The notes under the pieces were generated by a model that was not told the DNA's origin, did no database searches, and saw nothing but the letters and a program-made list of their open reading frames with translations. From the NCBI GenBank assembly GCA_944322585.1, contig CALUPB010000018.1:1-57144 (forward strand): 57,144 nucleotides of DNA. The letters are read 5' to 3'. This DNA comes from an uncultured Bacteroidales bacterium. GTDB lineage: Bacteria > Bacteroidota > Bacteroidia > Bacteroidales > UBA932. Both the position numbers and the translations under genes were made by a program. Shown here piece by piece: positions 24,303 through 38,471 of this stretch. The first letter of the stretch is position 1. Every line of letters begins with the position of its first letter.

Positions 24303-25433
24303 TTAACCCAGAATATCCAGAACGTGCTCTATCGTGACGGCATCGTGTATCGTGAAATCACCGCTGCGGGTGCGCCGGAGCGAATCGAGATGCGCCCCCG
24401 AACCGAGAGCCTCCCCGAGGTCACGGGCAAACGCCCTGATATAGGTTCCCTTGCTGCATGTGATCCGTATGTCTGCATGAGGAAGTCCGAGGTACGATGT
24501 GTCTGCGACATTTATCCTGCCGCTTGCATTTGATACCTGTCCCGTACCTTGTTGCCTATATTGCATTGTCTCACGGATTGACGGTCCTGAATCTGTTTCC
24601 TGTTGTGATGACCCGGCATTTGTCCCCTGTTGTGACGGTCCGGTGTCTGTCCCCGCCGGTCTGAAATCCAGAAGTTCCGCTTCGCTTATAGTGATTATTG
24701 ACGTCCTGAGCAATGATTTGGCCGTGTCATCGAAATCCACTTCATGGCCGCCCTGCTCCTGTTGACTCTCCTTGCGGTGTACTTCTTGCCGTCCGCCGTC
24801 CTCTTGCAGACTGTCCTTCCTGGGCCTGTCCTCATCTCCGTGCCTTCTGTTGCCGGCTGTCGCCTCTCTGCTTGTCGCGTTGTCACATATCATGATTGCT
24901 CCGTCAGAACCTCCGTCCATGGAAGCCTGTCCGGATTTTCTGTAAAGTTTTCTGGCCAGTTCGTATGCCCTGACCCCGTCCACGGACTTTGCGGAAAAGA
25001 GCGGAGCCACCTGTTCCTGTTCCCCGATGAACCGGGTCAGTGCCTTCCGGATGGCGTCTGCGGTAATATGCGCGTATGGGAACATCCTGTCGATATCCTT
25101 TTCGAGGTCGTATGACGGTGTGGTCGCCCCGAAACTGATGCCTGCGATATATTCCTTGTCATGCGACTGGAGCCGCTCTGCCATTTTCGTGGCGTTGCCG
25201 ATGCACACGAGCAGTATCCCTGTAGCCAACGGGTCGAGTGTCCCCGCGTGGCCGACCTTCAGGTTCTTTTTCCCGAAATGCCTGATAGCCGCGTATTTTA
25301 TCTTGCGTATGACGTCAGCGGAAGTCCATCTGTACGGCTTGTCCACAGGTATCACTATCCCTCCCGGATACTCTCCGATGTCATTCCCTGTTCTGTCGGT
25401 CGAACCGTCGATTATGAATGGCGTCCCGTTCAT
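24303..25433 (-). CDS. truB: tRNA pseudouridine(55) synthase TruB with two large insertions
   Basis: The 376-residue protein is long: bacterial TruB of this type is usually 230-310. The catalytic core is intact (IPVDKPYRWTSADVIRK at the N-terminus; GHAGTLDPLATGIL with nucleophile D67; YELARK; ITCSKGTYIRAFARDLG near 325-341). It makes pseudouridine 55 in the tRNA T arm. Residues about 168-241 and 258-316 are Ser/Gln/Gly/Asp-rich inserts absent from normal homologues. The second has near-repeats (TGPSQQG, AGSSQQE, SGPS). Both interrupt surface loops between core strands, so activity could be kept. The gene begins 9 bp after the prophage-type repressor gene ends, in the same direction. Confidence 0.93.
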   Translation of the reverse strand: MNGTPFIIDGSTDRTGNDIGEYPGGIVIPVDKPYRWTSADVIRKIKYAAIRHFGKKNLKVGHAGTLDPLATGILLVCIGNATKMAERLQSHDKEYIAGISFGATTPSYDLEKDIDRMFPYAHITADAIRKALTRFIGEQEQVAPLFSAKSVDGVRAYELARKLYRKSGQASMDGGSDGAIMICDNATSREATAGNRRHGDEDRPRKDSLQEDGGRQEVHRKESQQEQGGHEVDFDDTAKSLLRTSIITISEAELLDFRPAGTDTGPSQQGTNAGSSQQETDSGPSIRETMQYRQQGTGQVSNASGRINVADTSYLGLPHADIRITCSKGTYIRAFARDLGEALGSGAHLDSLRRTRSGDFTIHDAVTIEHVLDILG

Positions 25434-25442
25434 GATAAACTG

Positions 25443-26138
25443 CTATTCTACCCTGATGACTCCGAGGACAATGCTGATAGAGCGAATTTCGTTTTTCGGG
25501 ATACGGAAATCAGGGTATCTTTCTGTATTGTCCGAATGACAGATGATACAGTCCGTGTCCGCCTTGTCTTCATAGAGCCGCTTTACCAATGCTCCCTGTT
25601 CCGTGTCCAGTACATAGACCTTGCCCCACTGGATGAATGATGCAGCCTGGAGCTTTTTGCATGCGAGTAGATCTCCGTTGGAATATTTCGGATACATTGA
25701 GGAGCCTGATACGCGGATAAGGAATTTTGCTCCCTTGCTGGCCAATTCCGGAACATCGTATTTCTCGCAATCATCCTCCGTAACCATTTCGTTGTCGTTT
25801 CCCGGAAATCCGGCAAGGGCATCGATCGGGATGAGGGGAAGCGGGCTATAGTGGCGTCTGCTTTCATGACTGCCGCTATCATCGGGCTTATCCGTTCCTG
25901 CCATGGAAACTGCATCTTTGTTTCCGCCGGTTTTTCTCTCGTCCTGACAATGCAACTTGAACATGGAAGTGTTCCAGTCTTTATTGAGCAGTAGCTTGAG
26001 CTGCTGTTCCAAAGGTACCGGTCTTGTTCCGGATGCCAGCTGCGTGATGAAAGCAGGTGAGACCCCGAGATACTCTGCGACTTCTTTTTTCCGCAGATTG
26101 TTGACCCATAGAAATTCCTGGAAACCGGATATTGCCAT
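25443..26138 (-). CDS. Phage-type repressor: HTH plus S24 (LexA/CI-like) peptidase
   Basis: The 231-residue protein has an XRE-like helix-turn-helix (about 5-45; KKEVAEYLGVSPAFITQLASG), a low-complexity linker (about 65-95) and a C-terminal S24 domain with the catalytic serine in VSGSSMYPKYSNGD (about 144-157) and the lysine in GALVKRLYED (about 183-192). Both catalytic residues are present, so RecA-stimulated self-cleavage, as in LexA and CI, is expected. It is divergent from the tail module and separated from it by a 237-bp control region with promoter-like and inverted-repeat sequences. It most likely represses the tail and lysis modules and releases them on DNA damage. The regulon is inferred, not shown. 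Confidence 0.85.
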   Translation of the reverse strand: MAISGFQEFLWVNNLRKKEVAEYLGVSPAFITQLASGTRPVPLEQQLKLLLNKDWNTSMFKLHCQDERKTGGNKDAVSMAGTDKPDDSGSHESRRHYSPLPLIPIDALAGFPGNDNEMVTEDDCEKYDVPELASKGAKFLIRVSGSSMYPKYSNGDLLACKKLQAASFIQWGKVYVLDTEQGALVKRLYEDKADTDCIICHSDNTERYPDFRIPKNEIRSISIVLGVIRVE

Positions 26139-26160
26139 ATAAATTCAAATTAACGCTTAA

Positions 26161-26231
26161 AAATATTAGCAAAAATATTTGGATTGTTGCTTTAAAATGC
26201 TTTATCTTTGTATCGCGAAACAAAAAGCGAT
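26161..26231 (+). promoter_or_regulatory. Control region and promoter of the tail module (block A)
   Basis: TTTG (26178-26181), a 21-nt spacer and TATCTTTG (26203-26210) fit the Bacteroidota promoter consensus. An inverted repeat, AAATATT-N6-AATATTT (26161-26180), overlaps the -33 box and is a candidate operator for the divergent repressor. Just after the expected start, ATCGC-N10-GCGAT (26212-26231) can form a leader hairpin. The stretch 26187-26214 recurs almost unchanged upstream of the lysis module (36773-36799). About 145 nt of leader follow before the tail-tube ATG. Confidence 0.65.
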
Positions 26232-26375
26232 GCTGAATGCAAAGATAGGGATTTATTCGATAATAAAGCAATACTAACAGAAAATACTTTCCGGAAACAG
26301 TATTATATAAGTAAAACCCGGAAGCGACAGGATTTCCTGCAGAAAGTCCGTTCAGCTTCCACAACATCAGAAATC

Positions 26376-26834
26376 ATGTCTATACTATCATGGGGTAAAC
26401 CGCTTGTAGAGTTTACCAAAAGCGTGAACGGAGCACCTTCGACTTCTCCGGCTGCCGTGTGGACGGCGTTTTCAGAAATCAAGGAAGGAACGGCCCAGCT
26501 GACTGTCACGGCCGGCAACAGGACCGAAGCTATCGGCGAAGGCGGGGAGGTAGTGGATACCAGAGTCGCGAGGAACAAGTACTCGTTCGAGCTTCAGCTC
26601 TTTGTCAAGAAAGGGGACGAGAAGCCTATCGAGGATATGGACGGGGTTGTGGTGGATACCTATGCTGTCCGTCTGACTCCGGAGGACGAAACCTGCGAAG
26701 GATTCCTTATCGAGAATGCAACGGTATCTCTCGAAGAGACCTGGACCGCAGCGGACGGAAAGCTCTGGAAGTACGTCTTCTCGGCTATCAAGCCTGCTTC
26801 AGGCAATGTGCTTAAACCTTATGTAAAGGAATAA
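26376..26834 (+). CDS. Phage tail tube protein, putative
   Basis: The protein has 152 residues from the ATG at 26376. The open frame extends upstream through the leader, but that part has no protein-like features. It is beta-rich with no signal peptide: an N-terminal WGKPLVEFTKSVNG, a central RVARNKYSFELQLFVKKGDE and a C-terminal ENATVSLEETWTAADGKLWKY ahead of a Lys-Pro-rich tail. Size, beta-rich composition and position (first structural gene, ahead of the chaperone pair and tape measure) match the tail tube subunit of siphophage-like elements in Bacteroidales. Assignment depends on synteny as much as on sequence. A strong hairpin follows the stop. Confidence 0.65.
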   Translation: MSILSWGKPLVEFTKSVNGAPSTSPAAVWTAFSEIKEGTAQLTVTAGNRTEAIGEGGEVVDTRVARNKYSFELQLFVKKGDEKPIEDMDGVVVDTYAVRLTPEDETCEGFLIENATVSLEETWTAADGKLWKYVFSAIKPASGNVLKPYVKE

Positions 26835-26852
26835 AGCAGAAAAAGCGGGTGT

Positions 26853-26891
26853 GTAAGGCGGGGCCGGACTGACGGCCTGGCTCTGCCTTAC
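26853..26891 (+). terminator. Attenuator or terminator hairpin after the tail tube gene
   Basis: A 13-bp stem (26853-26865 with 26879-26891, two G-U pairs) begins GTAAGGC and ends GCCTTAC. It is followed by T-rich but broken sequence. A partial terminator here would give more tube than tail-assembly mRNA. It could also stabilise the upstream mRNA. Confidence 0.6.
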
Positions 26892-27029
26892 TTGTTCCAA
26901 TTTTACGGATCGGTACAACTGCTGGTAATTATCTGGGTACGGGTGACTTGAAAGGGTACTTCCCGCATTGGAATTCCCCTTCCGAGTTCATCTTCCTTAC
27001 GAAACTGTTTACAAATGGAATAAAAAGAT

Positions 27030-27638
27030 ATGGAAAATATTGAAAGCAGGGTCGCGGACACTGTCCTCCAGAGACCTGAAGAAATCAAGATAGGGGACAG
27101 GACATATACGGTCGCGCCTCCGAGTGTGGCTACTCTGATACTTGTGTCGGAGGCAGTCTCCAGGATGCCAGCGATAGATATCGACAGGAACAGGATCGTC
27201 CAGGGGACTCTTGCCGGAGCCAAAGACTGCCGGCCGTTGGGCGAAATCCTGGCAATAATGATACTCGGAGCCAAGGCGTTGTCCGGCAGACAGAAGCCGT
27301 CTGTCAGGATAAGTCCTTCGGCCGGGCGTGACAACGGGCAGGGCAGCCGGGTGTCGGGACAGTCGGGAAGATTGAAATCGTTTCTGAAAGCATTGCGCTT
27401 ATGTTCCGGTCGGCATGAAGCCGGACAGACGGGTATGCAGGAGGCGGAAGCGGTTAAAGCAGAACTTGCAGCGGAACTTCTCGAGAACCTGTCTCCGAAA
27501 GAACTGAGTGCCCTGACAGTGAAACTGCTCTCGAAGATGCAGGTGGCTGATTTTTTCGGGCTTACCACTTTCCTGACAGGAGCCGGCCTCACGGGGAGGA
27601 CGAGGAAAGTGGGCGGAACGACAGCATCTGGGCAGTGA
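27030..27638 (+). CDS. Tail assembly chaperone, zero-frame product (gpG-like)
   Basis: The 202-residue protein directly precedes the tape measure gene region, the standard place for lambda gpG-type chaperones. It is helical, with IKIGDRTYTVAPPSVATLILVSEAV at the start, and has a Gly/Ser/Gln-rich low-complexity stretch (about 92-140) that may be another insertion of the kind seen in truB and mraY. The last part, NLSPKELSALTVKLLSKMQVADFFG, carries the slippery codons for a -1 shift (Phe-Phe of ADFFG). Stopping normally it ends at 27638; shifting gives the longer fusion. The chaperone would coat the tape measure during tail assembly. Confidence 0.65.
   Translation: MENIESRVADTVLQRPEEIKIGDRTYTVAPPSVATLILVSEAVSRMPAIDIDRNRIVQGTLAGAKDCRPLGEILAIMILGAKALSGRQKPSVRISPSAGRDNGQGSRVSGQSGRLKSFLKALRLCSGRHEAGQTGMQEAEAVKAELAAELLENLSPKELSALTVKLLSKMQVADFFGLTTFLTGAGLTGRTRKVGGTTASGQ
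27551..27612 (+). promoter_or_regulatory. Programmed -1 ribosomal frameshift signal
   Basis: The heptamer T TTT TTC (27551-27557) sits in the correct zero-frame phase (GAT TTT TTC GGG). It is followed by a 7-nt spacer and a perfect 10-bp stem (CCACTTTCCT 27565-27574 with AGGAAAGTGG 27603-27612; 28-nt GC-rich loop). The -1 frame opens right after a TGA at 27548-27550 and stays open into the next chaperone frame up to 27838. Heptamer, spacing, stem and gene context all match known tail-chaperone frameshift sites. Confidence 0.8.
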
Positions 27639-27838
27639 TTGCCGGGACGGTCAAGGCATTCGGTTTCCCGTTGGACTATGTGCTTTATGACCTGAGCTAT
27701 GCCAATCTGATAATGTACGGAGCGGTACTTCCTACATTCGGGAGGGACAGGTCGCACAGACAGGAAGAAGAAGTCATAAATGCTGATGATCCGGGCAACA
27801 GGGACAGGGTAAGGAGTATAATATTTAACGGAAAGTAA
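27635..27838 (+). CDS. Tail assembly chaperone, -1 frame extension (gpT-like)
   Basis: As an independent gene it would start at a GTG overlapping the previous stop (GTGA) and give 67 residues. The frame is open from 27551, though, and reads through GRNDSIWAVIAGTVKAFGFP, so the conserved-looking part begins before the GTG. This favours synthesis as a fusion to the upstream chaperone by -1 frameshifting rather than from its own start. Residues FGFPLDYVLYDLSYANLIM resemble the T-domain partners next to tape measure genes in Bacteroidales prophages. It ends 1 nt before the tape measure ATG. Confidence 0.6.
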   Translation: MIAGTVKAFGFPLDYVLYDLSYANLIMYGAVLPTFGRDRSHRQEEEVINADDPGNRDRVRSIIFNGK

Positions 27839-27839
27839 T

Positions 27840-29426
27840 ATGGATACGGAAGAAATTGTATATAAAGTGGATGTGTCTGAATTGGAGGACAATGTCCGGA
27901 AAACCGCAGAGGCAGTCGAGGCATCTGTGGCAGAAATCGGGGAAAGTTACAGGAAAATAGATTTTTCCGTGTGGGATACGGATCTTCTGTCTGCATTGAA
28001 GCATATCAATGATCTGAAAGCTGCGATGGAAGAAGTGGAAGCCGCCATGGATAGCGGGGATGAAGAGGCGCAGAAAGAGGCAAGGCAGAACCTGGATGAG
28101 GCAGTGGACAGATTTGCTAAAGGAATGGCGGGAGCCGGGATGGGGGATCTTGGAAAGGCATTTGAGTTCGCTGCCGAGAACTTGCAGAAAATAGTCGACA
28201 TGTCCGGTGATGAGCGGATGTCCGAGACGGCTGATGCTCTCTCGTCAGTAGGACAGACGTTGAATGCGGCGGCTCAGGGCGCGGCGACAGGAGGATGGAT
28301 CGGTGCGGTCGTCGGTGCGGCTACGGATATAGCCAGTCAGATAGGAGAAGCATTGACGGCAGCAAGAGTGGAAGAGGAAGAGTATCTGAAAAACAGGGAG
28401 GACTTCCTGCGTGAATATGCGAAGCAGAATCTTCAGCTGAAAGATGAGGATTATGAAAGCGTATTCGGGACCGCTTCGGTAAAGAAGGCCCAGGATGCGT
28501 ATTCCAATGCACAGAAGGCCATGCAGGAGTACCTGAATGGTTCCTCCGGGCTTCTGTCAATGCAGGTAAAGACAAAGGATCACTCCGGGCTTGCGAATCT
28601 GTTCGGTGTCAAGGATGAATTTACGGCATTGAAAGATATGGCTCCTGAACTTTTCGACAGCGGGACAATGGAGCTTGACGTGGATGCTGCCAAGGTGTTC
28701 CTTCAGACGAATACGCAGATCAGCGATGAGCAGCGCCAGCAGATACAGAATGTCATCGATATGAAAGATGCATATGATGAGGCGATTGAGACTGTCAGGG
28801 ATCAGATTTCCGGAATTTTCGGGCAGCTGTCGGGCGAAATTACGGATGCGATTGCAGAATCCGTGCTCAACAGCACGTCGGCCTGGGATGCGTTCGAGCA
28901 GAGCGGAGTGAAAGTGATGGACAGCCTTGCAAGGCAGTTTATCCAGGAGAAAATCGTAAAGGCCTATCTTGACGGGTATGAGGATGATATGATAGCCGCC
29001 ATGTCGTCGGAAAATCCCCAGGAGTCTTTGTCGGAAGTGATGGGAACGATTTATCAGGGGCTTGGGAATGTCTATGATACGGCAGCCACGGTGTATGGCA
29101 GCTATATGGACCTTGCTGAATCATATGGTCTTGACATGGGCAGGCTGGCCGGCTCTACGGCTGTGGCGCAGAAAGGTATCGCCGCCGCATCGCAGGACTC
29201 GGTGGATGAACTCAACGGACGGATGACAGCGGTACAGGGACACACATTCTCCATCGCAGAGAACTCCCGGAGCCTTGTCGCCAACACTTCCCGGATGCTC
29301 GAACATCTTGCCGGCATTGAGGACAACACCGGAGAGCTTGCCCGGTTAGAGAACATCGAGACCTGTCTGTCGGATATGCGCAGGACAGTCAATGCTTTCA
29401 AGTCGCAGGGCATAAGGGTGAGGTAG
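27840..29426 (+). CDS. Phage tail tape measure protein
   Basis: The 528-residue, mostly helical protein has an N-terminal heptad-rich region (about 1-110), a Gly/Ala-rich hydrophobic stretch (about 140-175, NAAAQGAATGGWIGAVVGAA) typical of tape measures, further helices (about 180-400) and a C-terminal part (DELNGRMTAVQGHTFSIAEN) that I recognise from tape measures of Bacteroidales prophages. It would set tail length; at about 1.5 angstrom per residue, 528 residues suggest a tail near 80 nm, short for a siphophage. It lies between the chaperone pair and the distal tail gene, as in non-contractile tails. Confidence 0.82.
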   Translation: MDTEEIVYKVDVSELEDNVRKTAEAVEASVAEIGESYRKIDFSVWDTDLLSALKHINDLKAAMEEVEAAMDSGDEEAQKEARQNLDEAVDRFAKGMAGAGMGDLGKAFEFAAENLQKIVDMSGDERMSETADALSSVGQTLNAAAQGAATGGWIGAVVGAATDIASQIGEALTAARVEEEEYLKNREDFLREYAKQNLQLKDEDYESVFGTASVKKAQDAYSNAQKAMQEYLNGSSGLLSMQVKTKDHSGLANLFGVKDEFTALKDMAPELFDSGTMELDVDAAKVFLQTNTQISDEQRQQIQNVIDMKDAYDEAIETVRDQISGIFGQLSGEITDAIAESVLNSTSAWDAFEQSGVKVMDSLARQFIQEKIVKAYLDGYEDDMIAAMSSENPQESLSEVMGTIYQGLGNVYDTAATVYGSYMDLAESYGLDMGRLAGSTAVAQKGIAAASQDSVDELNGRMTAVQGHTFSIAENSRSLVANTSRMLEHLAGIEDNTGELARLENIETCLSDMRRTVNAFKSQGIRVR

Positions 29427-29455
29427 TCATTCGGAAATTTAGATGTCGGATTATT

Positions 29456-30316
29456 ATGAAGAATGAACTTTTTATAGACGGACATGATGCCTGTGCGGAT
29501 TACGGGATATCCGTCCTGGAAGGGACCTATGCTTCCATAGCCTCTTTCCCGGCACTGAAGAAAGTGACGGTTAACGACTGGTTCGAGTACGATGGGGTGG
29601 AGCCTGACCTTACCGCTCCGGTATTGGACAGCAGGAAGGTAAGCCTCGGTCTGGCCTATGGCGGAGGCAGGCAGAAGGTGGAACAATTTATCTGGCTTCT
29701 GACGTCGGAAGCCTGCCACGATTTCGAATTCAGAAGGGCAGGACGTACCCTGCGTCTGCGTCTGCTTTCGCAGCGGCAGACTGAAGGGACTCCCGACGAC
29801 GGGACCATGTCCATTGTCCTTTCGGAAGATTCGCCGTTGGAAGGTTACAGCTATCTCGCTCCTGAGAGTGCCGTCGCTGACAGCGATGACTACAGTATGG
29901 ACGGGAAATATCTGTCCGGTTACGGCATTTCGTTTCTCAACGGCACTGTCGCTGCGCTGACGCGGCTGCCCGATGTCAGGACAGGGCTTGAGCGCAAGAT
30001 AGCATCAGTGTCCGGAGTCATATATGACGGGGATGCCCCTGTCCGTTTCAGACAGAAGGATGTGAAGCTCGATTTCCTGATGCGGGCGTCTTCCGTGTCG
30101 CAGCTGTGGCGCAACCGGGATGCCTTCCTCTACGACCTTGTACGTCCGGGACTCAGGCAGTTCGCCTGCAAGGCGACCGGAAAGACATACGCCTGTTATT
30201 ACAAATCTGCCACGGTGTCCGAATTCTTCGCCGAAGACAGGATTTGGATGCGGGCTACCCTTGTCCTGACCGTAACAGGCAGTCAGGATACGTCCGTTTC
30301 CGGTACGATTGAATGA
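29456..30316 (+). CDS. Distal tail (Dit-like) protein, putative
   Basis: The 286-residue, beta-rich protein appears to contain two similar halves, each opening with an Asp/Tyr-Gly element (ADYGISVLEGTYASI near residue 11; SGYGISFLNGTVAALTRLPD near 154). It sits between the tape measure and the large tip protein, the place of Dit, which forms the hub at the tube end in siphophages. No enzymatic motif is seen. The two-half layout may reflect duplication of a tail-tube-like domain. The assignment rests chiefly on position and length. Confidence 0.62.
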   Translation: MKNELFIDGHDACADYGISVLEGTYASIASFPALKKVTVNDWFEYDGVEPDLTAPVLDSRKVSLGLAYGGGRQKVEQFIWLLTSEACHDFEFRRAGRTLRLRLLSQRQTEGTPDDGTMSIVLSEDSPLEGYSYLAPESAVADSDDYSMDGKYLSGYGISFLNGTVAALTRLPDVRTGLERKIASVSGVIYDGDAPVRFRQKDVKLDFLMRASSVSQLWRNRDAFLYDLVRPGLRQFACKATGKTYACYYKSATVSEFFAEDRIWMRATLVLTVTGSQDTSVSGTIE

Positions 30317-30391
30317 CAGAACGTACGGATGCACGGGCGCTTCCATATTTGCTGTGTTTGTATAAAATATTGAATATTAACTGGATAAATA

Positions 30392-33300
30392 ATGAAAATA
30401 TACGACAATAATACTGAAATCCTCGACGTCCGGGTGGATGACAGCAGCTACCGGTCGCGTGCGATAAAGGGAGAGCATATCCTTGTGCTGGATTTTTCCC
30501 TGCCGGAATATGTCGCGCTGCCTGTCGGGGCGTGGTGTGAATACCAGAATACGAGGTACACCCTTCTCCGTCCGGAGAACATGAAGATGATCCATACGAG
30601 GAATTACGAATATTCCGTGACATTCGAGGCGGCACAGGCGGAACTGTCCCGGTACAAGTTCCGGGATCTGACCGACGGGCGGCTCAAATTCAGCCTTACG
30701 GACAGGCCGAAAGGGCATCTGCAGCGTCTTGTGGACAACCTGAATGCCCGGGAGGAGGCTCTGACAGGGCAGACCGACCGCTGGAGCATAGGGGAGTGCA
30801 TCGACGCTTCCGCCAAGGCAATCAATTACAACCATACCGACTGCATGTCGGCTCTGACCATGATTGCGGATGAGTTCGGCACGGAGTGGGAGATAGACGG
30901 GACTGTGGTTTCTCTCCGCAAGGTCGAATACAACCGGGACAATCCTCTTCCCCTGTCCTACGGCAAGGGCAACGGCTTCAAGTCCGGAGTCGAGAGACGC
31001 AACTCCGATGAAAGCCTTCCCGTGGAGGTGCTGTATGTCCAGGGAGGGAACCGAAATATCGTCATGGAGAAATACGGTGCAGAGTCCCTGCATCTGCCGG
31101 AAGGTCAGACTATAAGATATGACGGAACCCGTTTCGAGGACGAGGAGGGCTTTATGGAGGCGGATGCCCGGGAATATGAGGTCTCTTCCGACGGGATGGA
31201 GATACACCGCTCCGACAGGGAGTTCTTTTCCCATGCCGAGGACAGTCTCGACTGTTCCGAAATCTATCCTTGCAGGGACGAGGAGATTTATAAGGTAGAG
31301 GAATTTGATAAAAAAAGATTGCCAGTAATTATCAAAACACCTGAAAATCTGGATTATGAGGATTATCGTCTGGATGATATGCCTACAGTCGTTTTTCAGG
31401 ACGGTAATCTTGCAGGGAAAGAATATGAATTGGATAAAGAGGAAAATAAAATATGCGAGAAATATTACGAGAACGGAAGTTTCATTGGGTGGAGGATATG
31501 GGTCAGGATTGACGAGGAGGATATGGCATTGTTCGGTACAGAAGGAGTCAGTCTTTCAGTAGCCGGCAGCAGGTTGAGGATTTTCGGCATTGCCCTTCCG
31601 GAAGAATATGTCTGCGACAACGCCGCCAGGTCCGGTGCGGAATGGGAGATGTTCCGCGAGGCTGTAAGGTATTTCCATGACCATGAAGAACGGAAATTCT
31701 CATTTACTGGTGAGTTGGACGGCATCTGGACCAAGGAGAACTGGCTCAATGTGGGAGGAAAGATCAGGCTCGGTGGTTATGTCGCCTTTACCGACCCGAA
31801 ATTCCAGCCGGAGCCTGTCCTTATCCGCATCACAGCCATCAAGGACTATGTCAACAATCCCTACAGTCCCGAGATAGAGCTTTCCAATTCTGTGGTAGGG
31901 CGTTCCTTTACCAGCGAGATGGACAGGATACATGGGGACGAGGTGCTCGTGGAGGACAGGCACAGGGAGTCCCTCAGGTACACTAAGCGCAGGATGAGGG
32001 ATACTTCCGAGGCTATCGGAATGCTGGAGCAGGCTATGCTCGGCAGCTTCAACGAGAGCATCACCCCTCTCGATGTCCAGACCATGCTGGTACTTATAGG
32101 GGATGAGAGCCTTCAGTTCCGGTTTGTGGACAGTATGGAAAATCCGCATCAGGTCATGCATCATGTGGAATATGACAGGACGGCCAAGGTCCTGAAAGTG
32201 CCGGCTGGGATAATCCAGCATATGACCCTCGATGTGTCTTCCGTATCCCCGTCACATCCTGCGTCGGACTATCATTTCTGGCAGCTGCCGGCGTTCGAGA
32301 CCCCGATCCTGACGGAGACGGAAAAGAAATATTACCTGTATGCAAAGGTCAGCCGCAGTGCACGGACAGGGACATTCCACATGAGCGGGACTGCCATAGG
32401 GATGATGCCGGAAGATGATCCGGACAATTATTATCTTCTTATGGGACTTCTCGGAAGCGAATTCGACGGCTACCGCAGCTATGTCTCCCTTTACGGCTTC
32501 ACCGAAATCCTTCCCGGCCAGATAAATACGGAAAGGATAGTCTCTGCTGATGGTAAGACCTATTTCGATCTTACCAATTCAGAGATAGGTGGTCGAATTG
32601 ACTTTCGGGATGGTCTGATTTCAGGCCTTGTAGGAGTGACCGGCAAGGAAAATCCTACGCATATAATAGCAGGTCTTAACGGTTCTGATATGGGAGCCGG
32701 TGAACATGGCAAACTCCTGTTTTTTGCAGGGACAGGCGAAGAGGATAATATCTCTATGTCCAAGACAAGGATATATGAGGATGGCTGGATATTTACAAAC
32801 ACTATAAAGATCGAAGAGGGCGGTAAGATTGGCGGTTTTTCGGTATTGGCTGACAGCAATGATTTTGTGGGGATTTATTATGAAAGTCCTTCTGATGACG
32901 GTTATATGGCATTGTCTAACGTGGCTTTCAGAATAGCTAATCATAAACATGCCACACTTTCCGATTATCGGTCAATCACGATGCAGACGGAAATGAGAGA
33001 CAGTATAATGTCTTTAAATCGTGTCGCAGATACAGCAGGGGAGAATAATGTAGTATTGAGCATATCTGCTACAGGTGCGGAAGTGGGCACTGGGCCTGCT
33101 AATATGCCAAGCGGGAATTATGCCATAGAATGTGTTCACGGGATGATAGCAGGCTTGAGGCCGAAGGTAAAGACTGTGGATGCCGCTAAATTTTTGACGT
33201 ATCAGATAACTGTTTTCGATTTTTATCTGTTGTGTTTTAATAATGCAAGTAGTGGAAGGACGCTGAATATGTATTTGCCTCAAAACCCGGAAAATGGACA

Positions 33301-33496
33301 GACAGTGTTAATTGTTAAGTCAGGTGCAAATTTCGTCATATATATAAATGGTAATGGTAAGACTATACATAGTGTACCAACATCAGCCAACGAAAATACA
33401 AGTACATTTAGCGTTAATACGGTTGGAACATATTTCTATACATACTCTGAAGAGGATAATAAATGGTGGCTGGATGCATTGATACGTGATAAGTAG
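30392..33496 (+). CDS. Tail tip / tail-associated (Tal-like) protein with variable C-terminus
   Basis: The 1034-residue protein is the largest in the tail module. The N-terminal ~400 residues resemble the prophage tail endopeptidase/hub proteins seen after Dit (TRNYEYSVTFEAAQAELSRY; SALTMIADEFGTEW; VEVLYVQGGNRNI). A central region (about 500-700) carries helical and barrel-like segments (FYLYAKVSRSARTG-like beta patterns), and the last third is beta-rich, Asn/Gly/Ser-rich and clearly more AT-rich in DNA, as expected for a receptor-binding part gained by exchange. It likely binds the target cell surface. It overlaps slightly with the start region of the small gene that follows. Confidence 0.72.
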   Translation: MKIYDNNTEILDVRVDDSSYRSRAIKGEHILVLDFSLPEYVALPVGAWCEYQNTRYTLLRPENMKMIHTRNYEYSVTFEAAQAELSRYKFRDLTDGRLKFSLTDRPKGHLQRLVDNLNAREEALTGQTDRWSIGECIDASAKAINYNHTDCMSALTMIADEFGTEWEIDGTVVSLRKVEYNRDNPLPLSYGKGNGFKSGVERRNSDESLPVEVLYVQGGNRNIVMEKYGAESLHLPEGQTIRYDGTRFEDEEGFMEADAREYEVSSDGMEIHRSDREFFSHAEDSLDCSEIYPCRDEEIYKVEEFDKKRLPVIIKTPENLDYEDYRLDDMPTVVFQDGNLAGKEYELDKEENKICEKYYENGSFIGWRIWVRIDEEDMALFGTEGVSLSVAGSRLRIFGIALPEEYVCDNAARSGAEWEMFREAVRYFHDHEERKFSFTGELDGIWTKENWLNVGGKIRLGGYVAFTDPKFQPEPVLIRITAIKDYVNNPYSPEIELSNSVVGRSFTSEMDRIHGDEVLVEDRHRESLRYTKRRMRDTSEAIGMLEQAMLGSFNESITPLDVQTMLVLIGDESLQFRFVDSMENPHQVMHHVEYDRTAKVLKVPAGIIQHMTLDVSSVSPSHPASDYHFWQLPAFETPILTETEKKYYLYAKVSRSARTGTFHMSGTAIGMMPEDDPDNYYLLMGLLGSEFDGYRSYVSLYGFTEILPGQINTERIVSADGKTYFDLTNSEIGGRIDFRDGLISGLVGVTGKENPTHIIAGLNGSDMGAGEHGKLLFFAGTGEEDNISMSKTRIYEDGWIFTNTIKIEEGGKIGGFSVLADSNDFVGIYYESPSDDGYMALSNVAFRIANHKHATLSDYRSITMQTEMRDSIMSLNRVADTAGENNVVLSISATGAEVGTGPANMPSGNYAIECVHGMIAGLRPKVKTVDAAKFLTYQITVFDFYLLCFNNASSGRTLNMYLPQNPENGQTVLIVKSGANFVIYINGNGKTIHSVPTSANENTSTFSVNTVGTYFYTYSEEDNKWWLDALIRDK

Positions 33497-33497
33497 T

Positions 33498-33749
33498 ATT
33501 ATGAAAATAGATTTCATAAGGCTCAGGATATATCCTGACATAGACCGGCAGAGGTCGGTGGAGATGGATGTCCGTAAGGATTTTGCGGATCTGATATATC
33601 AGAAAGGCAAAGGTGTAGCGGCTCATGCTCTTGCCTTGAAGATTTACAATTCGACAGGCGGGGAGGAGTACGGTGAGGAAGAGGTGCTCATGATACGGAG
33701 CTATGCGGAGAGTTTCGGTACTCCGATGTTCATCGATGCCGTGAATGAG
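33498..33749. repeat. Direct repeat, small gene, copy 1
   Basis: About 252 bp match 35501-35752 closely at an offset of 2003 bp. The match begins 3 bp before the ATG and ends shortly before the stop. Confidence 0.9.
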
Positions 33750-33770
33750 GTGATGGCCTCTGAAGGATAG
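33501..33770 (+). CDS. Small conserved protein after the tail-tip gene, copy 1
   Basis: The protein has 89 residues from the ATG at 33501, four bases after the tail-tip stop. It is charged and probably helical (MKIDFIRLRIYPDIDRQRSV; KGVAAHALALKIYNS; SYAESFGTPMFIDAVNEVM). I do not recognise the family. A near-identical copy lies at 35504. Its place right after a receptor-binding-type gene would suit a fibre-assembly chaperone, but nothing in the sequence shows this. A strong terminator follows and ends the tail operon. Confidence 0.7.
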   Translation: MKIDFIRLRIYPDIDRQRSVEMDVRKDFADLIYQKGKGVAAHALALKIYNSTGGEEYGEEEVLMIRSYAESFGTPMFIDAVNEVMASEG

Positions 33771-33794
33771 TAGTCTGACGGTATTATGTACGGA

Positions 33795-33830
33795 AGAATC
33801 CCTGCCTGGATACACCTCGGCAGGGATTCT
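33795..33830 (+). terminator. Terminator of the tail operon
   Basis: AGAATCCCTGCC (33795-33806) and GGCAGGGATTCT (33819-33830) form a perfect 12-bp stem with a 12-nt loop, followed by TTATAAG. It also lies at the 3' end of the convergent lipoprotein gene. Confidence 0.8.
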
Positions 33831-33866
33831 TTATAAGATGCATTATAAAATGGTTCCTGATAGTTA

Positions 33867-34673
33867 TCAGAAAAATAAGATACTCATGCAATTGCTAGGA
33901 ATATTTATCCAATTTGTCGTGGAGAATTCCCCAGTCGAAAAGATATAGATATATTTTTCTTTATTATTATCTGTACCGGATTCGCTCCAATATGTATCGT
34001 CTGCATATTCTTCGATTACGTCAAAAATTTTATCTCCTCCAATATCAGTGAACCATTTGCTGAATCTGTCCTGGTATTCGGCATTGGGAGTGGAGCTGTC
34101 GCTGCCGTTGAAGATTTCGTAAATGACTTCATAGTCTTCATTGCCGGGCATTTTCCATTGCAGATGTGTGGTTTCACGGAGAGTTTCGATCCAGTCGACA
34201 CAGTCGTTCCAGTCATATTCCGGCATTTCCTTGTAGATGACCATTCCGTCGGAATTTGCTGTCTTTTCGAGGACGACGACCCCGACGGGTTCATTGCCGA
34301 TGAAGAACGGCGACCCCTGGACAATCTCGCTTCGGAAGACCAGTTCGGCAGACGTTTCAGTCCCGTCACTTCCTCTGGCTACCACGTCGAGGGAATATTC
34401 CCCGCTGATTCCGGCATCGATGCCGCATGTCAGCGAGATGGCATTGGCGTCATTGTCGACTGAAGCCTGCCATCCGGACGGGACATTCCTGACCGAGACC
34501 TCCCTGTCCTGGCCGTCAGGGAATGAATACCCGATTTCCCGTGTCTCTCCGAGCCGGAACGCCCCGGCCTCCCCGAACACGATCCTCGCCCCCTCATCCC
34601 CGCTTCCCGTCTTCCCGCATCCTCCAGCAAGAGTCAGGTTTATGAGTGTCAGTATGATAAAAGTTTTTCGCAT
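33867..34673 (-). CDS. Putative lipoprotein, copy 1 (conserved N-terminus, variable C-terminus)
   Basis: The 268-residue protein has a lipoprotein signal (LTLAGGCG, Cys at residue 19), an Ig-like beta domain with a Gly/Ser spacer (about 25-120; VRNVPSGWQASVDNDANAIS) and an acidic, aromatic C-terminal part (about 145-268). The first ~146 residues are nearly identical to the second copy at 35891-36724, while the remaining part is only distantly similar. It faces against the tail operon. A surface or periplasmic lipoprotein carried by a phage-like element suggests lysogenic conversion or self-immunity by receptor shielding, but no known family supports either. Confidence 0.75.
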   Translation of the reverse strand: MRKTFIILTLINLTLAGGCGKTGSGDEGARIVFGEAGAFRLGETREIGYSFPDGQDREVSVRNVPSGWQASVDNDANAISLTCGIDAGISGEYSLDVVARGSDGTETSAELVFRSEIVQGSPFFIGNEPVGVVVLEKTANSDGMVIYKEMPEYDWNDCVDWIETLRETTHLQWKMPGNEDYEVIYEIFNGSDSSTPNAEYQDRFSKWFTDIGGDKIFDVIEEYADDTYWSESGTDNNKEKYIYIFSTGEFSTTNWINIPSNCMSILFF

Positions 34674-34702
34674 GATTATATCCTAATTTTTTCTATGAAT
34701 AT
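34237..34702. repeat. Long direct repeat, lipoprotein 5' half, copy 1
   Basis: This segment matches 36288-36753 almost base for base at a constant offset of 2051 bp, covering the lipoprotein 5' half and about 30 bp upstream of its start. Confidence 0.9.
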
Positions 34703-34791
34703 TGTAAGTGTCCTTTACTGAATTCGATTGTCGCTTTTAGAGCAACATATTTACTGACCGGGTTTACGGCCGGTGCTTTCCAGCATTGACA

Positions 34792-35079
34792 TCACTTTGC
34801 CGGAGTATATATCTTGTATACGTAAGATCTTAATCTCTCCATCTGACTCCTGCTTATATTGCGGAATGTGAATCTGGACATTGCAGACATTCCCCGTTCC
34901 TTGACAATCCTGCCTATCGAAGGATTCAGAAACATTGACGGCAGAACATCAACGCCATTCATATCAAGAGTTATTCTGTCCCCTGCATCAAGAGCAGGGT
35001 TAATCATATCAAATAAAGCGGATCCGGCATCCGGGAAAGTCCTCCCCTGCATGATTGTCGAAATATTGATCGTACACAT
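34792..35079 (-). CDS. STAS-like (DUF4325-type) protein
   Basis: The 95-residue protein has the pattern of the STAS-like DUF4325 domain (INISTIMQGRTFPDAGSALF; ITLDMNGVDVLPSMFLNPSI with a Ser in place to act as a phosphorylatable residue). Such proteins usually pair with a GHKL-type ATPase encoded just upstream. Here the upstream frame, 14 nt away on the same strand, is a shortened ATPase. The gene sits between the two copies of the duplicated cassette and looks like imported cargo. Confidence 0.6.
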   Translation of the reverse strand: MCTINISTIMQGRTFPDAGSALFDMINPALDAGDRITLDMNGVDVLPSMFLNPSIGRIVKERGMSAMSRFTFRNISRSQMERLRSYVYKIYTPAK

Positions 35080-35093
35080 AATCTGCCAATATT

Positions 35094-35441
35094 TTAGAAA
35101 TTTACTTCATTCAACAATTCATCATCGTTATTGTCATACTTTGATAAATTCATATCATACTCTAATAGCGTTCCGTTAAAGGAGAAATCCAACGCGCCAG
35201 TCCTGGTCGTTCTGTTATCAGAAATAAGGAAAGCGCTGTTGCTTATAATAGTAAGGTTCAAGTCATCCGTAACACTATTTTTAATGACATCAAGTCCCAT
35301 ACCGGCATTGTAACTTTTTGTCCCGACAGTAAAGTTTGCATTCAGAGCCATTTTCAGCGCTTCCTCATCCGAAAAGTCCGGATATACCCCCTTTACCGAA
35401 TTTGCAATTCCTATCCCGAAATCGCAGATAGCCACATCCAT
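35094..35441 (-). pseudogene. Truncated GHKL-type ATPase domain
   Basis: The 115-residue frame holds only the second half of a histidine-kinase-like ATPase fold: the G1 box (ICDFGIGI) is at residues 5-12 and a G2-like box (NAGMGLDVIKN) near residue 65. The N-terminal helix with the Asn of the N box is missing, so ATP hydrolysis is not expected. TATATTTG (35448-35455, minus), a -7 match, lies 6 nt before the ATG, so a short leaderless product could still be made. It is the broken partner of the STAS-like protein. Confidence 0.6.
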
Positions 35442-35500
35442 AATTCACAAATATACACAAAAATATCATATATAACCATCTGCTTCTTTATCCTGCTGTT

Positions 35501-35752
35501 ATTATGAAAATAGATTTCATAAGGCTCAGGATATATCCTGGCATAGACCGGCAGAGGTCGGTGGAGATGGATGTCCGCAAGGATTTTGCGGATCTGATAT
35601 ATCAGAAAGGCAAAGGAGTCGCGGCCCATGCTCTTGCCCTGAAGATTTACAATTCGGCAGGCGGGGAGGAGTACGGCGAGGAAGAGGTGCTTCAGATACG
35701 GAACTATGCGGAGAGTTTCGGCACTCCGATGTTCATCGATGCCGTGAATGAG
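35501..35752. repeat. Direct repeat, small gene, copy 2
   Basis: Second copy of 33498-33749. The sequence upstream is unrelated to the tail-tip gene end that precedes copy 1. Confidence 0.9.
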
Positions 35753-35776
35753 GCTGTGGAACAGTGTAAAGGCTGA
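35504..35776 (+). CDS. Small conserved protein, copy 2
   Basis: The 90-residue protein is nearly identical to copy 1 at 33501 until the last eight residues. It has no tail-tip gene before it and no evident promoter; the preceding bases belong to the start of the truncated ATPase on the other strand. It may be an orphan left from loss or exchange of a tail-fibre unit, or a spare module. A strong hairpin terminator follows. Confidence 0.6.
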   Translation: MKIDFIRLRIYPGIDRQRSVEMDVRKDFADLIYQKGKGVAAHALALKIYNSAGGEEYGEEEVLQIRNYAESFGTPMFIDAVNEAVEQCKG

Positions 35777-35825
35777 CCCCGTCTTAATGGCTATGATATC
35801 AGTAATATGCCTGTATGTAAGAATA

Positions 35826-35861
35826 GGTTCTGCATCATAAATTTGCAGATGATGCAGAACC
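35826..35861. terminator. Hairpin terminator between small gene copy 2 and lipoprotein copy 2
   Basis: GGTTCTGCATCAT (35826-35838) and ATGATGCAGAACC (35849-35861) form a perfect 13-bp stem, followed on the plus strand by ATTTTATAAT. It lies between convergent genes and may serve both. Confidence 0.75.
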
Positions 35862-35890
35862 ATTTTATAATATTAAGATTAATGCTGTTC

Positions 35891-36724
35891 TTAAAATCTT
35901 AATATAGCCATACAGTTTACGGAGGATCCAGCTGTTGTTATTAGTGGTGTTCCGGGAATGATCCAATCATGAGAAGAATTTGACTTAAATACAAATGTAT
36001 ATCTATTGTCATCATTTTCAGAAACTATTGTTTTTGACCAAAAAGAAATAGAGTTTTTTTCAAAAAAAGGTTCTTTAGTGATATTCATAAACCATTCGTT
36101 GAATCTATTTTGATATGTTATATTTGGATTAGGGCTAGTACTTCCGTTGAATATTGTATATATAATCTCATAGTCTTCATTGCCAGGCATTTCCCAATCT
36201 AATTTCGTTTGGACTCTTAATTTCTCAATCCATTGAATGCATGTATTCCAATCAGTCCACTCATCATCCGATTCTTGTCTATAACATATGACCATTCCGT
36301 CGGAATTTGCGGTCTTTTCGAGGACAACGACCCCGACGGGTTCATTGCCGATGAAGAACGGCGAGCCTTGGACAATTTCGCTGCGGAAGACCAGTTCGGC
36401 AGACGTTTCAGTCCCGTTGCTCCCTTTGGCTACCACATCAAGGGAATATTCCCCGCTGATTCCGGCATCGATGCCGCATGTCAGCGAGATGGCATTGGCG
36501 TCATTGTCTACAGAAGCCTGCCATCCGGAGGGGACATTCCTGACCGAGACCTCCCTGTCCTGGCCGTCAGGGAATGAATACCCGATTTCCTGTGTCTCCC
36601 CGAGCCGGAACGCCCCGGCCTCCCCTAACACGATCCTCGTACCCATATCCCCGCTTCCCTCTTTCCCGCATCCTCCTGCAAGAGTCAGACTTATGAGTGT
36701 CAGTATGATAAAAGTTTTTCGCAT
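35891..36724 (-). CDS. Putative lipoprotein, copy 2
   Basis: The 277-residue paralogue of the gene at 33867-34673 has the same lipoprotein signal (Cys at residue 19) and Ig-like N-terminal half, nearly identical at DNA level. The C-terminal ~130 residues differ: they keep a common frame (W-I-E-x-L-R-x-x-T; MPGNEDYE, IFNGS, YQ-RF-WF) but little else, and the DNA there is AT-rich. This suggests exchange or fast divergence of the C-terminal domain while the N-terminal half is held identical, perhaps by gene conversion. Function is unknown. Confidence 0.75.
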   Translation of the reverse strand: MRKTFIILTLISLTLAGGCGKEGSGDMGTRIVLGEAGAFRLGETQEIGYSFPDGQDREVSVRNVPSGWQASVDNDANAISLTCGIDAGISGEYSLDVVAKGSNGTETSAELVFRSEIVQGSPFFIGNEPVGVVVLEKTANSDGMVICYRQESDDEWTDWNTCIQWIEKLRVQTKLDWEMPGNEDYEIIYTIFNGSTSPNPNITYQNRFNEWFMNITKEPFFEKNSISFWSKTIVSENDDNRYTFVFKSNSSHDWIIPGTPLITTAGSSVNCMAILRF

Positions 36725-36753
36725 GATTATATCCTAATTCTTTTTATGAATAT
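36288..36753. repeat. Long direct repeat, lipoprotein 5' half, copy 2
   Basis: Second copy of 34237-34702 (466 bp). Confidence 0.9.
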
Positions 36754-36764
36754 AGCAGACGGAC

Positions 36765-36825
36765 TTGCTTTATTGCTTAAAATTGCTTTATTTTGTATCC
36801 GGATAGCAACAGAGATGCTGTCCGG
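36765..36825 (+). promoter_or_regulatory. Promoter and leader hairpin of the lysis-like module (block B)
   Basis: Positions 36773-36799 repeat block A (26187-26214) with a few changes: both read TTGCTT(T)AAAA(T)TGC, then TTTAT(C)TTTGTATC. A TTG at 36765-36767, a 21-nt spacer and TATTTTG (36789-36795) could act as promoter. As in block A, a hairpin follows at the expected start: CCGGATAGCA (36799-36808) with TGCTGTCCGG (36816-36825). GATGCTG occurs in both leaders. Confidence 0.6.
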
Positions 36826-36855
36826 TCTCAGTAACTTCCAAAGTTAGACAATATT

Positions 36856-37476
36856 ATGGATATATCAAGCGTCATGGAATATTTACCGGCAATAATCAGC
36901 GCGGCAGGCACAATCATAGCGGCATGGTTCGCCTATAACCAGTATAGCAAGAACAAGCTGACAGACTTGAAGATAGAGCAGTTCAAGTCTGAGGAGCGGA
37001 CTGCATCCCGAAAAAGGAACGACAGCTCCGCGATAGTTTTCGGAGAGCTCTGGAGTGTCCTGTACCGGCTTGATGCCGACAGGGTCTATATTGTTCAGCC
37101 TCATCCTCTCGGAAATGAGGAGATGCTGTCTGTGTATTATGAAGTAAAGCGGAAGGGTATTCAGGGCATGAAAGAACGTGTACAGCGGATCAGGATGTCA
37201 GACATGCCGTCTTTCAGCGGAGAGCTCGGCCGTAACCGGATGATGTTCATATCGGATGTCGACACTCAGGTACAGGATGAGCTTGTCAAGGCCATGTTTT
37301 CTCTGTGCGGATGTGAATGTCTTGCGGTAAGGAGGCTGAATGACGGCAGACACGACTGGGTCGGCAGTCTGTTCTGTGAATATACTGAGATGACTGATAT
37401 GGACAGGTCTTTGGTCGAGTGCGTGATGGACGAGGCTGCCATGAACATTCAGTATATTCTTCCGGATTACCGATAG
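36856..37476 (+). CDS. Membrane-anchored protein of unknown function in the lysis-like module
   Basis: The 206-residue protein has one N-terminal membrane segment (about 8-27; YLPAIISAAGTIIAAWFAY), a Lys-rich linker and a soluble domain (about 60-200) whose alternating helices and strands (FGELWSVLYRLDADRVYIVQ, then DWVGSLFCEY, then a closing helix) look GAF-like, though I would not claim the family. It heads the module that contains the DUF5675 and Rz-like genes and follows block B. Its place suits a holin or another membrane-acting lysis factor, but a 150-residue soluble domain is unusual for a holin. Confidence 0.6.
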   Translation: MDISSVMEYLPAIISAAGTIIAAWFAYNQYSKNKLTDLKIEQFKSEERTASRKRNDSSAIVFGELWSVLYRLDADRVYIVQPHPLGNEEMLSVYYEVKRKGIQGMKERVQRIRMSDMPSFSGELGRNRMMFISDVDTQVQDELVKAMFSLCGCECLAVRRLNDGRHDWVGSLFCEYTEMTDMDRSLVECVMDEAAMNIQYILPDYR

Positions 37477-37530
37477 TCCCTCCATTATCTTGAAATTCAT
37501 TGATTTATTGTTGATTTTAAACTGCTGGAT

Positions 37531-37953
37531 ATGAAACTGCTTTTGAAAAGAGAATTCCTCGGTAACGACTATACAGTCGGTTCCCTTTTCATCGACGGGG
37601 AATATTTCTGCGATACCCTTGAAGATCCGGTGCGGGATATCGACAGAGACGGGGTGTTCAAAGGAAAGGAAATCAAGATACCGGGCAGAACGGCTATCCC
37701 GTACGGGAAATACGGGCTAACAGTGAATTATTCCCCGAAGTTCCGTCGCAGATTGCCGAGATTACTCGATGTACCTGATTTTGAGGGAATTCTTATCCAT
37801 AGAGGTAATACGGCGGATGATACGTCAGGCTGTATACTGGTGGGGGAGAACCGGATAAAGGGTATGGTGCTGAATTCGTCGGCTTATGAAAAACGGCTTG
37901 TTGAATTGCTCGGCAGTGCAGAAGGGGAGGAAATGACGATAGAAATCATATGA
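37531..37953 (+). CDS. DUF5675 family protein, candidate endolysin
   Basis: The 140-residue protein begins LLLKREFLGNDYTVGSLFI and contains EDPVRDIDRDGVF, IPYGKYGLTVNYSPKF and ILIHRGNTADDTSGCILVG, which I recognise as DUF5675, common near the ends of Bacteroidales phage tail operons. The late H-x11-SGC pattern resembles the His/Ser-Gly-Cys active site of YkuD L,D-transpeptidases, so a peptidoglycan-acting role is possible; this comparison is inference. It overlaps the following Rz-like gene by 4 nt (ATGA), so the two are probably co-translated. Confidence 0.72.
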   Translation: MKLLLKREFLGNDYTVGSLFIDGEYFCDTLEDPVRDIDRDGVFKGKEIKIPGRTAIPYGKYGLTVNYSPKFRRRLPRLLDVPDFEGILIHRGNTADDTSGCILVGENRIKGMVLNSSAYEKRLVELLGSAEGEEMTIEII

Positions 37954-38471
37954 AACCAAAATGGATCAGTATTTTCCTCTTTCTGGCAGGTTGTGCTGCC
38001 GGATGGATGGGCACGAGACTTTTTGAGAGAGAATCCCGGAACAGGCGGGATATTGTTGTCAGGACTGATACTGTAGTTGTCACGGACACTGTCATTGAAA
38101 GGATGCCGGAACCGGTGGCAATGTCGGTCGTGGATACTTTGCACATTCCGGTTATGGATACTGTACTGTATTCTGTTAAGGATACTTTGTATGTGCGGGA
38201 TACGCTGTATGTCGAATTGCCGAGGGAACAGAAATTCTATAGTGCGGATGATTACCGGGTATGGGTGAGCGGGTATCGTCCGAGACTTGACAGTATAGCT
38301 GTTTTCCCGTCTGCTGTGTATGTGGACAGGGAGGTGATCCGCAGGGAAAGAATGCCGGGACGCTGGGGACTCGGGTTACATGCAGGGTATGGTGTAGGGT
38401 GTGCGGACGGGCGACTGAAATTGAGTCCCTACATCGGTGTCGGTATCTCGTATAACCTGCTGTCGTGGTAA
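37950..38471 (+). CDS. Rz/spanin-like membrane protein (DUF6808-like)
   Basis: The 173-residue protein has one N-terminal TM (about 5-22; ISIFLFLAGCAAGWMGTRLF), a periplasmic stretch of Thr-Asp-Thr repeats (VVRTDTVVVTDTVIER; DTVLYSVKDTLYVRDTLYVE) and a C-terminal barrel-like tail (WGLGLHAGYGVGC ... YIGVGISYNL). This is the layout of small proteins ending the lysis module in Bacteroidales prophages, thought to act like spanins by linking the membranes. The overlap with the DUF5675 gene supports a common job. The predicted Cys in LAGCAAG could be a lipobox in an alternative reading. Confidence 0.65.
   Translation: MKPKWISIFLFLAGCAAGWMGTRLFERESRNRRDIVVRTDTVVVTDTVIERMPEPVAMSVVDTLHIPVMDTVLYSVKDTLYVRDTLYVELPREQKFYSADDYRVWVSGYRPRLDSIAVFPSAVYVDREVIRRERMPGRWGLGLHAGYGVGCADGRLKLSPYIGVGISYNLLSW

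Follow-up and report, generated by a model that had tools for sequence, protein, structure and literature searches.

What is the function of a locus that carries the genes of a phage tail under a prophage-type repressor, with no recognizable head? The question is raised by positions 25443–38471 of contig CALUPB010000018.1 (assembly GCA_944322585.1), a Bacteroidales contig whose whole length of 57,144 nt was analysed and is called the window below. A preliminary description had proposed a candidate F-type tailocin; of this proposal the headless tail set and the repressor stand, and kindred headless loci occur elsewhere; the making of a particle and killing by it are what we infer. In our opinion, with a probability of about 0.6, the locus is a domesticated siphophage tail locus making a headless, noncontractile (F-type-like) tailocin, whose released form would be the killing particle. 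This interpretation is supported by a tail set without head families, by the silence of 18 head profiles and by the absence of a terminase elsewhere in the genome; by the cleavage triad of the repressor and a control block common to two operons; by the empty site found in related genomes; by a split in the length of tape measure proteins (TMPs) between head-bearing and headless loci; and by the observations that the headless TMPs of the window and of two relatives (G404 and L179) keep only a C-terminal part and that the tube of a headless clade is under purifying selection.

A tail gene set without head genes

The 16 open reading frames (ORFs) of the locus, at the positions given in the preliminary description, were all compared with PHROGs and Pfam, and 10 of the 16 with NCBIfam. 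Those of the tail are the following.

26376..26834, plus strand: tail tube candidate, 152 residues (phrog_17745), gene order as in the full prophage G796
27030..27638, plus strand: tail assembly chaperone-like gene 1, 202 residues (phrog_12247; PHROGs, Pfam)
27635..27838, plus strand: tail assembly chaperone-like gene 2, 67 residues (phrog_25685; PHROGs, gene order)
27840..29426, plus strand: short TMP, 528 residues, matching the C-terminal part of phage TMPs
29456..30316, plus strand: tail protein, Dit-like by position, 286 residues (phrog_6305; PHROGs)
30392..33496, plus strand: tail tip protein, 1034 residues (Pfam, PHROGs, phage homologues)

Product names are given by PHROGs to the repressor, the TMP and the "tail protein" only; the tube candidate, both chaperone-like genes, the tip, an ATPase fragment and three lysis-like genes fall into phage families of unknown function, a STAS gene matches another such family weakly, and a 94-residue gene, a 90-residue gene and two lipoproteins have no match in PHROGs. 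A siphophage-type tail set can be recognized, its TMP and tail protein by PHROGs, its tip by phage homology and its tube by position. The short TMP of the preliminary description is confirmed (phrog_9959, "tail length tape measure", E = 6e-36, over profile positions 1167–1707 of 1708 only), as is its Dit-like protein, which belongs to phrog_6305, "tail protein" (E = 7e-68), and owes the label Dit to its position. The tip protein is likewise corroborated, by homologues in 61 phage records, including Riemerella "RanS" phages (21–26% identity among the 20 matches listed), its Pfam match to Prophage_tail lying under the cut-off (26.2 of 31.3 bits); residues 1–739 are conserved among siphophage relatives, with 39–53% identity to the five aligned. 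The two other tail assignments hold in part: the tube candidate, whose family is unnamed in PHROGs, takes its identity from the gene order shared with G796, but comparisons with the PDB and with profiles gave it no support, while the chaperone pair consists of two genes of unnamed phage families to which the name tail assembly chaperone comes as a weak hint (E = 0.2). PDB searches with the tip, the repressor and the tube returned nothing useful; close copies of the tail protein were found neither in IMG/VR nor in the phage collection, none were found of the TMP, and the tube has one such record.

Head, packaging, integrase and replication families were not found among the 16 ORFs in these libraries, nor did PHROGs and Pfam reveal a sheath family, which an R-type tailocin or contractile injection system would have; the terminase, portal, capsid and integrase of an intact prophage are likewise missing from the locus. 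Head-type names appear as chance-level matches in the repressor only (phrog_57, terminase small subunit, E = 0.26), which also has a match of this kind to an excisionase in PHROGs (phrog_66, E = 0.17); beyond these, a sensitive profile search of the interval for head, terminase and integrase genes gave nothing. Moreover, 18 head and connector profiles, built from full prophages (portal and terminase on the basis of Pfam, the others of position), were silent at E = 0.05 across the whole window, and in the rest of its genome (93.5% complete) the terminase family PF03237 has no match and phrog_2 a single weak one (E = 1e-4, in an ORF of 1663 residues). Library scans and head profiles together thus uphold the description of a headless, integrase-less and sheath-less locus under a prophage-type repressor.

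Tape measure length in head-bearing and headless loci

Tip homologues were sought in named genomes (53 loci), in IMG/VR (the best 80 of 141) and in genomes of the order (21 of 393 at E = 1e-20); extra upstream DNA was retrieved for these loci, and each stretch was classed by the head profiles. The final pass comprised 194 stretches, some of them overlapping; 63 had no TMP in view, in 34 the TMP start was cut and 15 held repeat TMPs, which left 82 for classing: 55 with core head genes, 8 with connector-like genes only and 19 with neither. In all 55 distinct loci with core head genes the TMP measures 1046–1721 residues; in the 8 with connector-like genes only, where at most 3.6 kb upstream is visible, it measures 1303–1664. 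Twelve of the 19 loci without head genes show less than 2.8 kb upstream and cannot be judged (including L069, the shorter locus of G793), whereas five are headless, with TMPs of 528 (window), 565 (G404, of the same genus), 709 (L179), 714 (L192) and 737 residues (G790). Headless loci of the same tail family, with similarly short TMPs, are carried by other Bacteroidales. The head profiles are silent at E = 0.05 in G404, L179, L192 and L197; in G790 there is one connector-like match (E = 1e-4) in an ORF of 122 residues, and in G404 a terminase is present on another contig. G793 (L069) was kept apart as a partial case: its TMP has 907 residues, and the 17 kb upstream contain one connector-like gene and none of the core head genes, with a recombinase-like gene further on. 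Of the remaining two of the 19, L098 was dropped, its TMP match of 108 residues being false, and L269 (from the record of L155) was left uncounted: its TMP has 1324 residues, and the 9.2 kb upstream, which hold no head gene, look like cargo and do not reach the tube.

The three headless TMPs that were aligned (window, G404 and L179) match only the C-terminal part of phage TMPs; in particular, residues 66–526 of the window protein align to residues 1157–1609 of the TMP of G229. Three of the four full-phage TMPs compared (G796, L121 and G229) have in common a conserved stretch of about 530 residues at their beginning, which is lacking in the three headless proteins; the fourth (G795) has a different N-terminus. 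In diffocin, a contractile bacteriocin of solved structure, the N-terminus of the TMP contacts the collar and the C-terminus the spike, according to the available part of PMC11329794; by this analogy, it is the head-proximal end that would have been lost.

L179, L192 and G790 group as a headless clade in the tip tree (support 100/100). Their tubes are 88–91% identical, with a nonsynonymous divergence (dN) of 0.06–0.07 against a synonymous one (dS) of 2.4 or saturated, and their TMP, tail protein and tip, more diverged than the tube, contain no stops; these values indicate a headless tail lineage kept by selection in Bacteroidales, two of its three members being metagenomic fragments. The window and G404 are paired in the tip tree (92/96, not starred; 99 in a quick tree), whereas by its tube the window is nearest to the full prophage G796 (70% identity). 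A shared headless origin of the two is favoured by the tip tree and not by the tube, and for this reason the window and G404 may be separate domestications.

Repressor, control regions and lysis-like operon

25443..26138, minus strand: CI/LexA-type repressor, 231 residues, with helix-turn-helix and S24 autopeptidase domain
26178..26271, no strand assigned: divergent control region (sequence, Bacteroidales promoter consensus)
36725..36855, no strand assigned: control block before the lysis-like operon (74-nt local alignment to the block before the tube)
36856..37476, plus strand: holin-like candidate, 206 residues (phrog_38864; family of unknown function, putative role)
37531..37953, plus strand: DUF5675 protein, 140 residues, possible wall-acting enzyme
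37950..38471, plus strand: DUF6808 protein, 173 residues, putatively Rz-like by position

The repressor, earlier described as SOS-type, proves to be of the CI/LexA type (Peptidase_S24, E = 2e-13 in Pfam; phrog_4 repressor, E = 6e-19 in PHROGs), with the LexA/CI layout for autocleavage and an intact triad (Ala109-Gly110, Ser147, Lys186). Since its stop codon lies 9 nt ahead of the start of truB, both are probably on one transcript. The divergent control region contains a plus-strand pattern TTTG-N21-TATCTTTG (26178–26210), which we take to be a Bacteroidales-type promoter and which arises in 1.9% of 2000 shuffles of the region; a palindrome ATCGC-N10-GCGAT (26212–26231) between the divergent promoters; and a minus-strand box TATCTTTG (26247–26240), the minus-strand promoter being looser than the plus-strand one. 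The shared control blocks claimed earlier are real: the score of the 74-nt alignment between the blocks before the lysis-like operon and before the tube was reached by 0 of 1000 shuffles, for regions picked after the likeness had been noticed. Because the block is common to the tail and lysis-like operons, a single repressor could control both; of the putative SOS induction, what is seen is the cleavable type of the repressor and this block. As to the lysis-like module, its three genes of phage-type families (phrog_38864, DUF5675 and DUF6808) are in place, but none of the three is labelled lysis by any library, and a lysis function of the set is plausible; the holin-like candidate has no hydrophobic segment above 1.6.

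Insertion site and occurrence in the genus

24303..25433, minus strand: truB, host flank (ORF list, comparison with relatives)
38571..40667, minus strand: gltX-rpiB reading frame, host flank (ORF list, comparison with relatives)

In five of the eight same-genus genomes fetched (G451, G442, G029, G007 and G032) rpiB adjoins truB in the order ftsA-ftsZ-gltX-rpiB-truB, whereas in the window a 13-kb element lies between rpiB and truB; the other three are uninformative (in L234 and L236 neither rpiB nor truB stands next to gltX, and the sequence of L239 stops too soon). A full prophage occupying this position, named in the preliminary description as the contrary case, was seen in none of the eight. 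Repeats at the element ends, including attachment repeats, amount to nothing longer than one 9-mer. In the window, gltX and rpiB are joined in an open frame of 698 residues, whose nearest match (G451, 81%) has an internal stop, and truB contains an insert-like stretch at about residues 174–233, which the matches in four relatives skip or at which they break.

Proposed mechanism and alternative explanations

The repressor would bind in two places, at the palindrome that separates the divergent promoters and at a similar site ahead of the lysis-like operon; upon DNA damage, RecA would trigger its self-cleavage, and both operons would open. Tube, chaperones, short TMP, tail protein and tip would then assemble into a tail of about 80 nm, tail length following a rule of 0.15 nm per TMP residue (528 x 0.15); the lysis-like genes would release the tail, whose tip would bind related cells and damage their membrane. 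More speculatively, the opposite-strand lipoproteins may shield the producer. A wider version of this proposal seems doubtful to us, namely that Bacteroidales have on more than one occasion made noncontractile tailocins from one siphophage tail family, by loss of the head genes and of the N-terminal part of the TMP and hence with short tails, in one record as two tandem modules that share a single repressor and lysis set, and that the duplicated lipoproteins, in which an anchor half is conserved while an outer half diversifies, provide self-immunity by receptor shielding.

Several observations weigh against a functional tailocin. The tube is a candidate on account of its position, and neither a tail terminator nor an endolysin was identified by homology in the locus; the window TMP has no hydrophobic segment above 1.3, while membrane helices are predicted in that of diffocin (available part of PMC11329794). 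G404, the nearest headless kin, has no repressor in its ORF lists, and G790 no lysis genes; L179 and L192 come from metagenomic fragments, and head genes could be located beyond the ends of these contigs. The selection estimate concerns L179, L192 and G790 and not the genes of the window; the tube family occurs in 4 of 400 same-genus genomes, in two of them weakly, a single-sequence search of 61 relatives finds the tail protein in one, the window's own genome, and a truncated ATPase gene lies inside the locus.

This sporadic occurrence and the truncated gene are also what a decaying defective prophage would show, that is, a tail module that lost, or never had, its head, replication and integrase genes and whose remainder is not yet broken; given the 70% identity between this tube and the one of G796, the loss could be fairly recent, and in a young remnant the lysis-like genes and the repressor would persist too. 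We consider this unlikely, though it is the alternative to be taken most seriously. The intact frames of the preliminary description hold for the tail, where every ORF is open, and fail for the ATPase gene (35094–35441); a deletion would have had to take out not only the head genes but also the N-terminal part of the TMP, and yet spare regulator, tail and lysis-like genes; the same combination recurs in G404, L179, L192 and G790, with the tube under purifying selection in three of these; and the control block is still common to both operons. Much harder to credit is a tail-encoding helper or satellite that completes the heads of another phage, or an exclusion or adhesion island selected for its lipoprotein cassettes. 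Such a role would suit the duplication of these cassettes, conserved in their N-terminal and diverged in their C-terminal part, the presence of opposite-strand lipoproteins after the tip in some full prophages too, and the terminase on another contig of the same-genus G404; however, the window's own genome shows no terminase and the locus neither integrase nor packaging gene, the lost part of the TMP is the one that contacts the collar in the solved tailocin (available part of PMC11329794), and the conservation of tip residues 1–739 fits target binding.

Relation to known systems

F-type pyocins and monocins are noncontractile headless tails with lysis genes and stress-linked control, of lambda-like or Listeria phage origin. 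The window locus, a candidate new member of this kind, shares with them the gene set of a noncontractile headless tail, accompanied here by a lysis-like set and a prophage-type repressor, and differs in belonging to a Bacteroidales siphophage tail family and in having a TMP reduced to its C-terminal part. The available parts of PMC12090994 and PMC11329794 name the F-type pyocins of Pseudomonas and the monocins of Listeria. The closest experimental analogue is rhizoviticin, an SOS-dependent, prophage-derived F-type tailocin of Allorhizobium vitis, shown to kill (PMC10811719, available part); its locus is likewise headless and combines flexible-tail and lysis genes with a LexA-like repressor, but it keeps replication genes and an integrase remnant and has a tRNA gene as neighbour. 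The window locus does not have such remnants, derives from a different phage family and is a candidate by its gene content. The contractile phage-tail-like systems of Bacteroidetes (PMC4122934, available part) are phage-tail-derived and of the same phylum, but they are sheathed. In agreement with the preliminary description, which knew of no established system of this kind, no noncontractile tailocin of Bacteroidales was found described in the literature searched (available parts of PMC10811719, PMC12090994, PMC11329794, PMC4122934, PMC12946183 and PMC11535334), preprints and most subscription papers lying outside this search.

Among full prophages, G796 (CAJSYJ010000003.1, L063) arranges its tail genes as the window does (tube, chaperones, TMP, tail protein, tip), with 70% identity to the window in the tube and 55% in the tip; unlike the window, it has genes for a head, a portal-like protein and connectors upstream, and its TMP is 1604 residues long. 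Discussion of antagonism among gut Bacteroidales mostly centres on type VI secretion and protein toxins; released phage-tail weapons, if they exist, would add a diffusible, strain-specific layer. The split in TMP length, if upheld in larger surveys, would offer a simple sequence test that distinguishes prophages from candidate tailocins, and would show how parts serving the head are shed from phage tails.

Lipoprotein cassettes and opposite-strand genes

33486..33770, plus strand: 94-residue gene, copy 1 of a duplicated cassette (phage relative in L194)
33795..33830, no strand assigned: terminator-like hairpin, 12-bp perfect stem
33867..34673, minus strand: lipoprotein 1, 268 residues (signal judged by eye)
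34792..35079, minus strand: STAS-like DUF4325 protein, 95 residues (Pfam)
35094..35441, minus strand: C-terminal fragment of an ATPase-like gene (phrog_3364, positions 189–297 of 304)
35504..35776, plus strand: 90-residue gene, copy 2 of the cassette (254 nt at 95% identity)
35826..35861, no strand assigned: terminator-like hairpin, 13-bp perfect stem
35891..36724, minus strand: lipoprotein 2, 277 residues (comparison with lipoprotein 1)

The cassette of the 94- or 90-residue gene and a lipoprotein is, to judge from 254 nt and 300 nt at 95% identity, a recent duplication. The two lipoproteins agree at 137 of 145 residues in the N-terminal part and at 57 of 116 in the C-terminal part, and self-protection or shielding of the producer by them is a speculative role. 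Lipoproteins were rejected as a hallmark of headless loci: by a rough motif, opposite-strand lipoproteins follow the tip in 19 of 105 loci overall, full prophages included; the L192 match in this count seems spurious, and L102 and G230 belong to the same contig. In G404, two opposite-strand lipoprotein-like ORFs of its own adjoin a duplicated TMP end. As to the strong terminators described earlier, a scan shows no excess (9 found, against 11.2 in shuffles), but the convergent junctions do carry perfect stems, one of 12 bp and one of 13 bp, whose loops exceed the length permitted in the scan.

Further observations on related loci

The record that contains L192 and L197 (G792; IMG/VR 3300011593_000018; 35 kb) has two tandem noncontractile tail modules, with TMPs of 550 and 714 residues, together with a CI-like repressor, an endolysin and an Rz-like ORF; the head profiles are silent in its 35 kb, and its head-named matches are two short or incidental ones, to a "minor head protein" across 32 residues of the first tip (E = 4e-4) and, within the endolysin, to a virion-lysozyme motif. 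The layout resembles that of tandem pyocin loci, though here both tails are noncontractile. In G404, an AbiL-like defence pair adjoins the headless tail locus (L039, 18305–20000; AbiLi, E = 1e-67; AbiLii, E = 1e-15, cut by the stretch end), and immediately ahead of the tube gene stands a hairpin with a run of six T after it (L075, about 3420–3470), so that this tail locus may be controlled by antitermination. In L179, a Mu Gam-like gene (2221–2733; Pfam, E = 5e-28) between the repressor and the lysis genes hints at descent from a Mu-like phage. Finally, tail tips of the Bacteroidales family occur on contigs binned as Oscillospiraceae or Ruminococcus (L070 and L071), which are perhaps misbinned.

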